Assembly: GCA_024230435.1 (NCBI GenBank)
Contig: JAAERL010000175.1
Coordinates: forward strand, 1-34,061
Direction: 5' to 3'
Length of the DNA stretch: 34,061 nt
Origin: Desulfobacteraceae bacterium
GTDB lineage: Bacteria > Desulfobacterota > Desulfobacteria > Desulfobacterales > Desulfosarcinaceae
The translations under genes and the position numbers were made by a program. The first letter of the stretch is position 1. Each line of letters starts with the position of its first letter. Shown in pieces: positions 1,864 to 34,061 of this stretch. The notes beneath the pieces are model-generated. The model was given only the letters and a program-made list of their open reading frames with translations. It was not told the origin of the DNA and searched no databases.

Positions 1864-2036
1864 TTAGGCGATTTGTGTTAAATAATATACAATCTTGCTT
1901 GTCTTTTTTTCCAATCTTGTGCGCTATGCCAAAGGTGCGAATACGTTAAGTATGCAAACTTTGGTGCGCCTTGAAAACAAAAAAGTACTGCCCGATATGG
2001 TATATTCTTTTCCGCTAATCGCCTTATCATTTGAAT
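1864..2036 (+). repeat. MITE-like palindromic repeat, copy A
   Basis: The left end TTAGGCGATT...AATATAC is matched by the inverse complement of the right end (TAAGGCGATTAGCGGAAAAG...). Inside is a second nested inverted repeat around ATACGTTAAGTAT, flanked by GCCAAAG and CTTTGG. The whole element is about 75 percent identical by eye to the reverse complement of 31281-31442. No ORF is inside, so it would be non-autonomous. Its right end lies about 100 bases upstream of the next gene. Confidence 0.75.
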
Positions 2037-2848: not shown

Positions 2849-3206
2849 ACCAGCAAATACCGGAAAAAGTTAAACAACTTTGCGTATTTTAGAAATTCTT
2901 TAGCCGAAGACTTCTTTTGTCCTGTTCGTCTCCCATCACAAAATAAATATCGTCTTGTTTTGAGTGTTTTTCAAAACGCGCCCGGCCTTATCCCGGTCTG
3001 CTGCAAGGATGATAAGCCGTATATTTTTTGTTAAAATTCTCGTTAAAGTTAATTGAAATAAAGTCGATATATAAAATAAGCACTTTCTTGATAGCCTTAA
3101 ACAAGCATTTCATTTTGAACACATAGCAATATGCGTTGAGCAAGTTTTGAGCCAAGTTACAGACTGTTTTTGATAGAATCAAAAATTTGGTGAGAAACAC
3201 ATTTTT
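2849..3206. other. Intergenic region without a convincing gene
   Basis: AT-rich sequence between the membrane protein and the REP-like hairpin at 3207. A 70-codon minus-strand frame (2988-3200) is Lys/Phe/Asn-rich with no ribosome site or recognisable motif, and is probably not a gene. Confidence 0.4.
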
Positions 3207-3260
3207 AGGATTATCCAGCGATAATTCCCGGCAATTTATTGCCGGCGGCTGCCACCAAGG
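3207..3260 (+). repeat. REP-like hairpin repeat, copy 1
   Basis: It reads AGGATTATCCAGCG followed by a hairpin with CCGGCAAT/ATTGCCGG arms (3228-3245), then a GC-rich tail. The reverse complement of 18611-18670 has the same layout (AGATTATCCAGCG, CCCGGTAATTTATTGCCGGG, GC-rich tail). It lies in an intergenic space about 70 bases upstream of the gene at 3331. Confidence 0.65.
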
Positions 3261-5770: not shown

Positions 5771-5830
5771 TTAGGCGATTAGCGCAAAAGAATATATCGT
5801 CTTAATATTCTTTGGCACAAATCACTTTAA
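5771..5830 (-). repeat. MITE-like repeat, copy C (short deletion form)
   Basis: The left terminus TTAGGCGATTAGCGCAAAAG...AATATA and the inverted right terminus (reverse complement TTAAAGTGATTTGTGCCAAAG...AATATTA) are both present. Almost the whole interior found in copies A and B is missing, leaving a 60-bp terminus-to-terminus hairpin. It abuts the stop codon of the RHH gene. Confidence 0.65.
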
Positions 5831-6049
5831 TTATATGGCGATTGGCAGTATCACCTCTTTGTATGTGTCTTTTTTTTCATCTACAGATGCTATGATTCGC
5901 TTGTGCTCACTTTTTTCCTTTATAGCCCATTTTAACAAATTCAGTGAAATATTAAAGAGCTCTTTTTTTGTTCCAATTCCGTATTCAGCCATAAGTTTTT
6001 CAAGCTCCACAAAGTTTCTGTCCGGAATATCTATCTGTATTCTTTTCAT
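5831..6049 (-). CDS. Ribbon-helix-helix-type DNA-binding protein (putative)
   Basis: A 72-residue protein. Its start MKRIQIDIPDRNFVELEKLM matches the short beta-strand plus helix of RHH (CopG/Arc-like) proteins, followed by a turn and a second helix (KKELFNISLNLLKWAI). RHH proteins bind DNA as dimers and often act as antitoxins or autorepressors. A G-rich ribosome site (GGGGGG) lies six bases before the ATG. No toxin partner is evident: the next gene downstream is a small membrane protein across the MITE-like copy C. It is divergent from arsR with a 208-bp spacer that contains a TTGACA on this strand near 6120. Confidence 0.55.
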   Translation of the reverse strand: MKRIQIDIPDRNFVELEKLMAEYGIGTKKELFNISLNLLKWAIKEKSEHKRIIASVDEKKDTYKEVILPIAI

Positions 6050-15780: not shown

Positions 15781-15822
15781 ACAAGATAGCTCCCGGCAAA
15801 GCTTTGCCGGGAGCTATCTTGT
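15781..15822. repeat. Perfect 42-bp palindrome
   Basis: ACAAGATAGCTCCCGGCAAA (15781-15800) followed by G, then its full reverse complement to 15822, with no central loop and no mismatch. There is no poly-T on either side, so it is not a standard terminator, although it lies downstream of the HU gene. It shares CTCCCGGCAA with the REP-like hairpin at 18611-18670. Confidence 0.85.
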
Positions 15823-18610: not shown

Positions 18611-18670
18611 ATTGCCGCCTCGTGACTGCTCCCGGCAATAAATTACCGGGAATTCACGCTGGATAATCTT
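18611..18670 (-). repeat. REP-like hairpin repeat, copy 2, possible bidirectional terminator
   Basis: CTCCCGGCAATAAATTACCGGGAATT forms a strong hairpin between two convergent stop codons (18592 and 18669). Read on the minus strand (AGATTATCCAGCG, then the hairpin, then GGAGCAGTCACGAGGCGGC) it matches the layout and most bases of 3207-3260. Confidence 0.65.
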
Positions 18671-19643
18671 AAAAAATGTTACGTTTTTCCTGGTATTCGG
18701 GGATTTCGATCATCGGCGGCCTTTCATAGCCTTGCAGGTTGGCAATATCGGGCTCGATATGATCCTTGACTATGCTGTATTGAATCATTTCATCAAACAT
18801 TTTTCCCTTGGTGTCGATCAATCCTTGTGCGCTAATCCGGTTGATAAAGGTTTTGAGTATGGCAAAGGACATCTTTCCCAAAGCCCTGGTGTCCTGGTTG
18901 CGGTGGATGCGCCTTTCAAGGTCCACCTGGGCTATAACATCAAGGCCCCATTGGTTGTAGATGTCTAAAATCATACTGGTTTCAATGCCATAGCCAATGG
19001 GGAAGGGGATTTTTTCAAAGATTTCCCGGTAACCGGCATACTCACCGGAAAGCGGTTGCATGATTTGGGTGAGCTCGGGAAAAAAAAGTGAAAATAAAGG
19101 ACGAATCACTAATTCAGTCACCCGTCCGCCGCCAGTAGGGCGCATTTTTCCGGTGTCACTGGCTATAGGACGGTCATAGAACGCTTTTGTATATTTAATC
19201 TGGTCAGTGATTAAAAGGGGCCCCAGAAGGCCGTAGACAAAACGGTGATGGATATTTTTTATATCCGCGTCAAGGTAGATGATAATATCGCCTTGTGTAA
19301 TATACAAAGCTTTCCAGAGGTTTTCTCCTTTGCCTTTGTATTTCTCCAGGCTGGGCAGGATATCATCGGCTTTGAAAACGTCTGCCCCGTATGACCGGGC
19401 AACTTCTAGTGTTTTATCTGTGGAGCCCGAGTCGATCACCACAATTTCGTCCAGCAGAGGGTAACGGGACATAAGCTCGGATTTGAAGATAACAATTTCT
19501 TTAGCAATGGTTTTTTCTTCATTCAACGTGGGCAGGCATAATGAGATTGTCAGACCTTTTCGATGCTTGATATCCACAAGAGCTGCAAGGTCCCCGAAAT
19601 CATGATAATTAAACGTATTAGTTCTAATCCATGGGTGATTCAT
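18669..19643 (-). CDS. gpgS: Glucosyl-3-phosphoglycerate synthase (GT-A glycosyltransferase)
   Basis: About 324 residues from MNHPWIRTN (ATG 19643). The frame extends to 19712, but family alignment and the 20-base overlap with the upstream gene support 19643. GT-A features are CLPTLNEEKTIAKEI, VIDSGSTDKTLEVA, the metal-binding YLDADI, MRPTGGGRVTELVIRPLFS, and PLSGEYAGYREIFEKIPFP followed by GYGIE. GpgS makes glucosyl-3-phosphoglycerate from an NDP-glucose and 3-phosphoglycerate, the first step to the osmolyte glucosylglycerate. A mannosyl-3-phosphoglycerate or related product is the main alternative. No gpgP-type phosphatase is visible next to it. Confidence 0.87.
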   Translation of the reverse strand: MNHPWIRTNTFNYHDFGDLAALVDIKHRKGLTISLCLPTLNEEKTIAKEIVIFKSELMSRYPLLDEIVVIDSGSTDKTLEVARSYGADVFKADDILPSLEKYKGKGENLWKALYITQGDIIIYLDADIKNIHHRFVYGLLGPLLITDQIKYTKAFYDRPIASDTGKMRPTGGGRVTELVIRPLFSLFFPELTQIMQPLSGEYAGYREIFEKIPFPIGYGIETSMILDIYNQWGLDVIAQVDLERRIHRNQDTRALGKMSFAILKTFINRISAQGLIDTKGKMFDEMIQYSIVKDHIEPDIANLQGYERPPMIEIPEYQEKRNIF

Positions 19644-31280: not shown

Positions 31281-31442
31281 TTAGGCGATTGGCGGAAAAG
31301 AATATACCAGATTGAGCAGGATTTTTTTTCGTATTCAAGGCGTGCCAAAGTTTGCATACTTAACGTATTCGGGCTTTGGCATAACGCAGAAGACGGGAAA
31401 AAAGACATACAAGATGGTATATTCTTTAACAGAAATCGTCTT
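31281..31442 (-). repeat. MITE-like palindromic repeat, copy B
   Basis: Termini TTAGGCGATTGGCGGAAAAG and the inverted TTAAGACGATTTCTGTTAAA, both followed by GAATATACCA. The internal inverted repeat is GCCAAAGTTTGC...GGGCTTTGGC around ATACTTAACGTAT. It aligns end to end with the reverse complement of 1864-2036. Its right end abuts, and just overlaps, the stop codon of the TPR gene. Confidence 0.75.
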
Positions 31443-31956
31443 AATTATCATTAAAAATTTTAGAAGCTACGATTTTTTCAAATAGTTTCTGATGACGTTC
31501 ATCTCCCGGATCGGCATAAACAGCTTGTTGAGCCCAGTAGATAGCTTGGCTCCATTTTTTTAACCTGCTGAAATTTTTTGCAAGAACATAGAGTATGTGT
31601 TTATCCGGGACATTGCGTTTTTTAGGCGATAGTTTCAATAGACGGAAAAAATCTTCAATTGCCTGCTCATGTTCGCCGATAACCGTAGCGCAGCTTCCGC
31701 GTCCGATCAGGCTTTGTTCGTCTGCCGGATCAATTGCCAGTGCACGGGAATAATACACGAAGGCTGCGGTCAGCCTGCATTCAATTTCAGCTATTTTTCC
31801 TAAATAAAAATACGGGTTGTCGCCATCATGGTGGCGGTATGCCGGATTGAGCCGGATGACTTTTTCAAAGCCCCTGATGGCTTCAACGCCGTTAGGCAGG
31901 TGAAAGCACTTTCTGCCGTATTCAAACCACTGCTCAATGGTTTTTGACTTTTTCAT
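31441..31956 (-). CDS. Tetratricopeptide-repeat protein
   Basis: About 171 residues from ATG 31956 (MKKSKTIEQWFEYGRKCFHL); a TTG at 31971 is also in frame, and neither has a strong ribosome site. Three to four TPR helical pairs are visible: GVEAIRGFEKVIRLNPAYRH, AAFVYYSRALAIDPADEQSL, EQAIEDFFRLLKLSPKK, and SQAIYWAQQAVYADPGDERH, each with the Ala...(I/L)xP pattern. There is no signal peptide, so it is probably a cytoplasmic scaffold. Its stop codon lies at the edge of the MITE-like copy B. The partner is unknown. Confidence 0.75.
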   Translation of the reverse strand: MKKSKTIEQWFEYGRKCFHLPNGVEAIRGFEKVIRLNPAYRHHDGDNPYFYLGKIAEIECRLTAAFVYYSRALAIDPADEQSLIGRGSCATVIGEHEQAIEDFFRLLKLSPKKRNVPDKHILYVLAKNFSRLKKWSQAIYWAQQAVYADPGDERHQKLFEKIVASKIFNDN

Positions 31957-32032
31957 GCGTTTTTTAGCCAAATTGTCATTGATTTTAATATGTAAAATTT
32001 AATAAATTTATCATGACATTATTCGTTTTTCC

Positions 32033-33894: not shown

Positions 33895-34061
33895 CTAAGC
33901 GTAGCGTAGGGTGGCCCCTGTGTCAGGATGGATGCCGCTATTCTGGTTTTCGATATATCGCTTAATTACCGATAATGAAGCGCCACCAGCCGATACAATG
34001 CAGTAGGATCGAGACCATAGAACAGGCTTCCAATAAAATTTTTTTAGATGTTCGGCAAACT
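33895..34061 (-). mobile_element. tnpA: IS200/IS605 Y1 transposase (TnpA), C-terminal part only
   Basis: The frame enters from the right edge and ends with TAG at 33895-33897. The 55 visible residues include KKFYWKPVLWSRSYCIVSAG and then IKRYIENQ. That is the C-terminal helix of HUH/Y1 transposases with the nucleophilic Tyr and, four residues on, the Gln metal ligand. The HUH motif lies outside the window. These enzymes cut and join single-stranded DNA at subterminal hairpins. The frame abuts the truncated FkbM gene. A REP-associated (RAYT) transposase is possible. No TnpB is visible in the window. Confidence 0.8.

Follow-up and report, generated by a model that had tools for sequence, protein, structure and literature searches.

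A TWA-flanked MITE with a conserved hairpin core in genomes of the Desulfobacterales

In this report, we describe a short palindromic element that is dispersed in high copy number in the genome of a Desulfobacteraceae bacterium and whose hairpin core occurs in many genomes of the order Desulfobacterales. By its ends, its target duplication, its size, and the absence of genes, the element is a MITE, and an unusually conserved variant of that class. High copy number, duplication of TWA at the insertion site, nested insertion, a compound copy that moved in one piece, and order-wide occurrence were all observed. An imperfect hairpin with matched changes through the core and the ends was also observed, the length of which is constant, though not strictly so: a subgroup of the source genome measures 174-194 bp with the duplications (the length modes of this genome are 163 and 178), and forms of 103 and 268 bp are found in the two-contig genome G077. 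The explanation that we favor, and regard as probable, is that the element is a non-autonomous DNA transposon of ~157-163 bp that inserts at TWA with duplication of this sequence and is moved in trans by way of its GG...CC terminal repeats.

The window, the whole stretch of 34,061 nucleotides that was analyzed, is an entire contig of a genome of 6.13 Mb that is assembled in 1238 contigs. The three related repeats reported in the first-pass annotation, copies A, B, and C, are all present, with copies A and C in opposite orientations (Table 1). When 66 copies from the same genome were aligned, their consensus shared 83% identity with copy A. Folding of the copies had been suggested as a check, and when copies A and C were folded, each gave one long hairpin with z-scores of -5.04 and -6.28, respectively, that none of 200 dinucleotide shuffles of either copy matched. 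The inner inverted repeat described earlier is real and forms the tip of this single continuous imperfect hairpin. The terminal repeats are likewise present, but the TTA that had been counted with them is the target duplication, and the inverted repeat itself begins with GGCGATT.

Table 1. Copies of the element and an adjoining gene in the window
Feature	Position	Strand	Remarks
Copy C, full-length	31281..31443	+	TTA duplications at 31281-31283 and 31441-31443; element proper 31284-31440 (157 bp)
Copy C hairpin core, conserved, 107 nt	31310..31416	+	Covariance model R1, 112.1 bits
Copy A, full-length, older element	1864..2026	-	TTA duplications at 1864-1866 and 2024-2026
Copy A hairpin core	1891..1997	-	Covariance model R1, 64.1 bits
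Copy B, minimal form	5771..5829	+	TTA at 5771-5773 and 5827-5829; two terminal repeats, hardly any interior
TPR-repeat protein gene	31441..31971	-	TAA stop formed by the right-hand TTA duplication of copy C

Copy B was found to hold little beyond its termini, as had been noted, with TTA at both ends, and forms of 48-60 bp like it were found at loci L280, L241, L317, and L318. Copies B and C had both been reported to end at the stop codon of a minus-strand gene. This is correct for copy C, which ends in a TAA stop because the duplicated TWA lies there and insertion into TAA rebuilds the stop; for copy B, the nearby minus-strand ORF of 72 amino acids, which has no Pfam match, has its stop at 5831-5833, one base off the right-hand TTA. 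A second dispersed palindromic repeat, of the CCCGGCAATAAATTGCCGGG type, is located at 3202-3255, 15789-15812, and 18622-18675 of the window; the complementarity between its two long arms is 85%, and L248 contains a stretch that resembles it.

The family had been thought to have three members. The terminal-repeat pattern, with up to 3 mismatches, was found 525 times in the genome (263 matches on the plus strand and 262 on the minus strand; 0 and 1 for the reversed-pattern control), which corresponds to about 260 copies with such an end. The first-pass annotation had staked its case on further copies and on conserved ends or structure, and these were clearly found. A BLAST search with copy C gave 530 first-look candidates, and the 40 that were scored are all near-full copies with 91-100% identity. 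In a 434-kb sample of this genome that comprised the window and 20 further stretches, 56 elements or fragments were identified with a profile built from 13 diverse elements, and the covariance model R1 gave 50 matches at E ≤ 0.01, among them a few on the strand complementary to that of others. Contigs of the assembly often break within the element. The copy at L225:12126-12307 is a hybrid with one end of the GGGTTTTGG type and the other of the GGCGATTGG type.

In the same 434 kb, 29 of 31 near-full copies are not in called ORFs: 14 are flanked by co-directional genes, 8 by converging genes, and 5 by diverging genes, and 2 are at the ends of stretches. Of the two copies called inside ORFs, one is a nested copy and the other comes after the stop of a gene. 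Relative to co-directional neighbors, 7 copies are in the sense and 7 in the antisense orientation (n = 14). Among 24 copies with exact ends, the target was a natural TAA stop in 5, where 4.3% was expected from the TWA sites outside ORFs (154 stops and 3412 intergenic sites; p = 0.003). Stop codons are therefore targeted more often than intergenic TWA sites predict. Since the stop is re-created by the duplication, such an insertion does no harm.

The element proper begins with GG and ends with CC, and TTA or TAA adjoins it on either side. Among 119 distinct full-length hits, 93 had both TWA-GG and CC-TWA ends and could be scored, while 26 lacked both and were left unscored. The two flanks carry the same TWA in 82 of the 93 copies (52 of 59 in the source genome and 30 of 34 in other genomes; binomial p = 1.4e-14 against one half). 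This agreement cannot result from pairing between the ends, since TTA...TTA sets T opposite T. The length including both duplications was determined to be 162-167 bp in all 34 scored copies of other genomes. On contig C130, a younger copy has inserted into an older one with doubling of TAA, and joining of the flanks restores the older element. A 268-bp compound in G077 consists of the element with a second, TA-type repeat (another MITE) in its apical part. This compound was found at two loci, 265 of 268 positions identical, with unrelated flanks and TTA on both sides of each, and the terminal repeats thus move whatever lies between them. Also in G077, copies of the element at L311, L312, and L313 are interrupted, at two different positions, by another short repeat, which has TATAGATTGTC-type ends. 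The proposal that the repeats are MITE-like and mobilized in trans is supported by the TWA duplications, the nested insertion, the compound at two loci, and the lack of genes between such ends in the samples searched; the family is made up of short non-coding units with terminal inverted repeats and a target duplication, in dispersed, near-identical copies.

The core was aligned for 21 elements from 12 genomes, and its length was found to be 106-108 nt in all 21. Elements in the more distant genomes have other terminal repeats and other palindrome arms in the same layout. The core contains 35 pairs, with 94.1% of cells paired and 23 pairs changed on both sides. None of 500 shuffles reached any of the five covariation measures; this control is free of structure-derivation bias but ignores relatedness. 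When the partner was shifted by 1-3 columns, pairing of the core fell to 40-46%, a comparison that favors the derived structure because that structure was taken from the same sequences. The consensus of the whole element is a single imperfect hairpin with 51 pairs, of which 35 have changed on both sides. The mid-stem motifs CAAGGCG and AACGCAG are fixed while the arms vary. In 20 of the 21 elements, copy A being the exception, the plus strand (the orientation of copy C) forms a better fold than the complementary strand, and the fold energies for the alignment are -56.8 and -38.2 kcal/mol for the plus strand and the complement, respectively. Counted over the 41 pairs that both strands are predicted to form, G-U occurs 34 times and A-C 17 times. 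What is new here is one order-wide core hairpin despite differing ends and arms, and this core of constant length, changing pair by pair, is the distinguishing mark of the element.

A search with copy C matched 17 of 97 genomes (16 besides the source genome). Model R1 of the core, trained on sequences from 12 genomes, matched 100 of 194 genomes of the order at E ≤ 1e-3, 7 of the training genomes among them, and 46 of 194 at E ≤ 1e-10; 20 candidates were scored per genome, so that copy numbers are lower bounds, and the E-values are rough. At E ≤ 1e-3, the matches cover 61 of 123 good-quality genomes and 72 of 121 genera. The other 94 of the 194 genomes, including several of the family of the source genome, gave no match to R1. 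The assignment of the source genome to the Desulfobacterales was made from relatives of a protein encoded in the window. Thirty R1 loci were returned, and the 27 with room on both sides have ends of the TWA-GG kind or are decayed forms. Among 35 loci of named records, mostly of the Desulfobacterales, R1 found 3 matches (two in the Desulfobacterales and one in the Deltaproteobacteria). Genome G065 carries the core with a longer tip between GTGTCCGTCCAGAAACG repeats, TA-flanked in the 3 loci seen, at 36-44 bits; the GTGTCCGTCCAGAAACG end pattern has 306 matches in this genome and none in the control.

As a control, R1 was applied to the other 45 loci from the HemC search (884 kb, mostly Bacillota and almost all from outside the group), and a single match was obtained, with 22 bits and an E-value of 0.066. 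This match is on a contig of Candidatus Troglogloeales and lies within a hairpin of ~150 bp with GGGCACCTCTAAAAACC ends and the motifs CAAGGCG and AACGCAG; it may be either a relative or a look-alike. Two hairpins of ~150 bp with GGGCAYCTCTAAAAACC ends, one of them with the weak R1 match, were noted in Troglogloeales at L093:12350-12510 and L093:13880-14041. Plasmids and phages gave no match to the element, and viral contigs gave no match to one exact 26-base pattern of it. No report of the element was found in the literature searched, a body of text that leaves most subscription journals outside its coverage.

In 34 copies from the source genome there are 41 singleton changes, of which 33 fall at paired sites (31.9 ± 2.5 expected) and 13 preserve the pair (13.6 ± 1.9 expected). 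With these small numbers, selection on the fold after insertion is not detectable. Constraint on the fold was thus seen between lineages and not in resident copies, which agrees with a role of folding in the spread of the element. Since the copies are mostly intergenic, are equally divided in orientation, and show no detectable selection after insertion, the fold probably serves the spread of the element itself and not the host mRNA. The RNA-level role suggested earlier (3'-end processing or termination) found no support in the even orientation, the lack of a terminator-like site in copy C, or the singletons, which hit paired sites as often as expected. Copy C has neither a terminator-like site nor a T-tract hairpin, and 1 promoter-like site was found around it, compared with a shuffle mean of 1.4. 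Rfam gave no match at the gathering cut-off in the window, and the best match on five loci was to a miRNA model far below its cut-off (E = 0.91).

In the transposon model that we favor, insertion occurs at TWA and duplicates it, and a transposase encoded elsewhere, which would be IS5-like, would move the element by its terminal repeats. The plus-strand fold would be kept because the copies that fold are those that spread. As a cruciform, a single strand, or a short RNA, the fold would aid mobilization or protect the element; it would not be kept for any service that single inserted copies render to the host. A bolder version, which we hold only tentatively and consider rather doubtful, is that a family of mobile elements has its conserved heart in the portable 107-nt folded core rather than in the terminal repeats. 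The ends would diverge or even be exchanged, as in the TA-flanked version of G065 and the look-alike of Troglogloeales, and the plus-strand hairpin would be kept over the order since a trans factor recognizes it as single-stranded DNA or RNA.

Three other explanations were weighed against the favored one. The element could be a mobile structured RNA, the plus-strand hairpin being transcribed to act in trans or to mark mRNAs, with selection on the RNA keeping the fold. The better folding of the plus strand and the excess of G-U over A-C are what this predicts, as are the fixed mid-stem motifs between changing arms and the presence of the same core between different, TA-flanked ends in G065. We nevertheless judge it unlikely, given the even gene orientation (n = 14), the undetectable selection after insertion, the lack of an Rfam family, and promoter-like sites around copy C at the level of the shuffles. 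Template switching, a known mutational process at quasi-palindromes, could also copy one arm onto the other within an imperfect palindrome, so that the fold would need no function, and the undetectable selection on the inserted copies agrees with this. Such a process should erase mismatches, but internal loops and one-strand T-G pairs are retained throughout the order (in alignment A3, columns 19 and 20 are U-G in 11 and 13 of the 21 elements, respectively), and the mid-stem motifs are fixed. A mutational by-product is thus quite improbable.

The third explanation is a REPIN-like element moved on a folded single strand by a Y1 (RAYT/IS200-type) transposase. Y1 genes were found in 13 of the 14 element-bearing genomes tested, and the long hairpin and the missing autonomous copy would be in keeping with it. 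REPs are described as carrying GTAG or CGTC tags in the available text of PMC3733652. The present element has no such tag at its foot (it ends in TWA-GG) and it duplicates TWA; moreover, it was near only 2 of 30 fetched Y1 loci, both in the source genome, which is dense in the element. Based on the absence of these tags and the position of the Y1 genes away from the element, it is not a REPIN. No replichore bias was detected in the semicircle permutation for G019 (61 elements among the matches listed, p = 0.81) or G077 (30 elements, p = 0.32), which makes a lagging-strand single-strand route less likely and also counts against the favored explanation if its fold acts as a single strand at the replication fork. 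We therefore regard mobilization by a Y1 enzyme as very improbable. Other Y1 sequences were noted as follows: a transposase fragment at 33943-34053 (minus strand) at the right end of the window, with a fragment of equal length at C120:8532-8642; a copy of the element at L198:1758-1932 of the source genome that overlaps a Y1 transposase match; and, at G077:C1:3849532-3894064, densely clustered genes for Y1 transposases of about 338 amino acids.

To return to the DNA transposon, a transposase gene with the same terminal repeats was not found in the samples searched. When 40 terminal repeats of the source genome were followed up to 2.2 kb beyond each, no autonomous copy was encountered; 34 belonged to ordinary elements, and the remaining six comprised one minimal form, one contig-cut copy, and otherwise solo or partial ends. 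Inward-facing end pairs in 2.1 Mb of fetched loci gave no autonomous copy, and in G077 no such pair within 5 kb was longer than 268 bp. The single distant pair of ends, in L241 (1.7 kb), was considered and rejected as an autonomous element: the genes that it encloses are of the GNAT and PEBP families, with no transposase among them, and the right end is that of a 48-bp minimal form. The pair was therefore ascribed to chance.

TWA duplications fit the IS5 superfamily, and the IS5 insertion sequences with TNA/TWA duplication are those that we take to be the IS1031-like group. PF01609 and PF13586 are present in the source genome, where none of the 6 matches to PF01609 has ends of the element nearby. 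PF13586 was searched in 31 genomes, PF13340 and PF13359 in 12, and Y1 in 14. For PF13340, there was no match in 9 of the 12 element-bearing genomes (including G019 and G077), and for PF13359 there was none in 11 of the 12. An IS5_3 transposase remnant of the source genome (NCBIfam NF033580) starts with TAA followed by GAGCGTGTCTGAAAAATAAT in both of its copies, and this end resembles the ends of the element more than 211 of 215 control sites do, with 0 of 300 shuffles as good. In G017, a genome of the same bacterial family as the source genome, an IS5_3 element (also NF033580) is flanked by TTA on both sides. Its two ends are not beyond the control: 13% and 57% of control sites and 37 and 97 of 300 shuffles, respectively, were as good. 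One of the three tested IS5 ends thus resembles the ends of the element beyond the control. IS5 elements share with ours the 3-bp TWA duplication (in the G017 copy) and ends that begin with G followed by an A-rich stretch, but they are about 930 bp, coding, and unrelated in their interior. An IS5-family enzyme is the leading candidate for the mobilizing enzyme, a candidacy that we put forward with reserve.

Comparable elements are known from other bacteria. ERIC, like our element, is not known to have an autonomous partner. Like our element, the ERIC of enterobacteria is described in the available parts of PMC10969869 and PMC2229807 as small, non-coding, intergenic, of high copy number, spread over related taxa, and folded into a whole-length hairpin. 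As given there, ERIC is 127 bp with a short TIR, TA ends, and 30 to 711 copies, whereas our element is 162-167 bp with a TWA duplication, a variable TIR of ~25 bp, and a core fold maintained by compensatory changes across the order. The Correia/NEMIS elements of Neisseria resemble ours in the long TIR, the target duplication, and more than 100 copies; they have TA ends, their hairpin is part of a transcript, and RNase III processing of mRNA is reported (available text of PMC2229807). No sign of an mRNA role was seen for our element, and it is likened to Correia/NEMIS by description and not by sequence. By this analogy, and within the accessible text of PMC10969869 and PMC2229807, our element would appear to work like ERIC or Correia elements. 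The Chunjie MITE of Geobacter uraniireducens, likewise of a delta-type proteobacterium, is intergenic and present in tens of copies, but at 178-235 bp it is set apart by the description in the available part of PMC10969869 and not by sequence.

The element is a major repeat of these genomes and can occupy stop codons without harm, and model R1 provides the means to find and count it. If the portable core does prove to be the conserved heart, it would represent a hairpin-dependent system of mobilization or protection unlike that of ordinary MITEs. As a rule, a bacterial MITE derives from one IS in a single lineage and does not last long; this hairpin has persisted through an order, and it raises the question of what selects the fold in a non-coding sequence whose resident copies look unconstrained.
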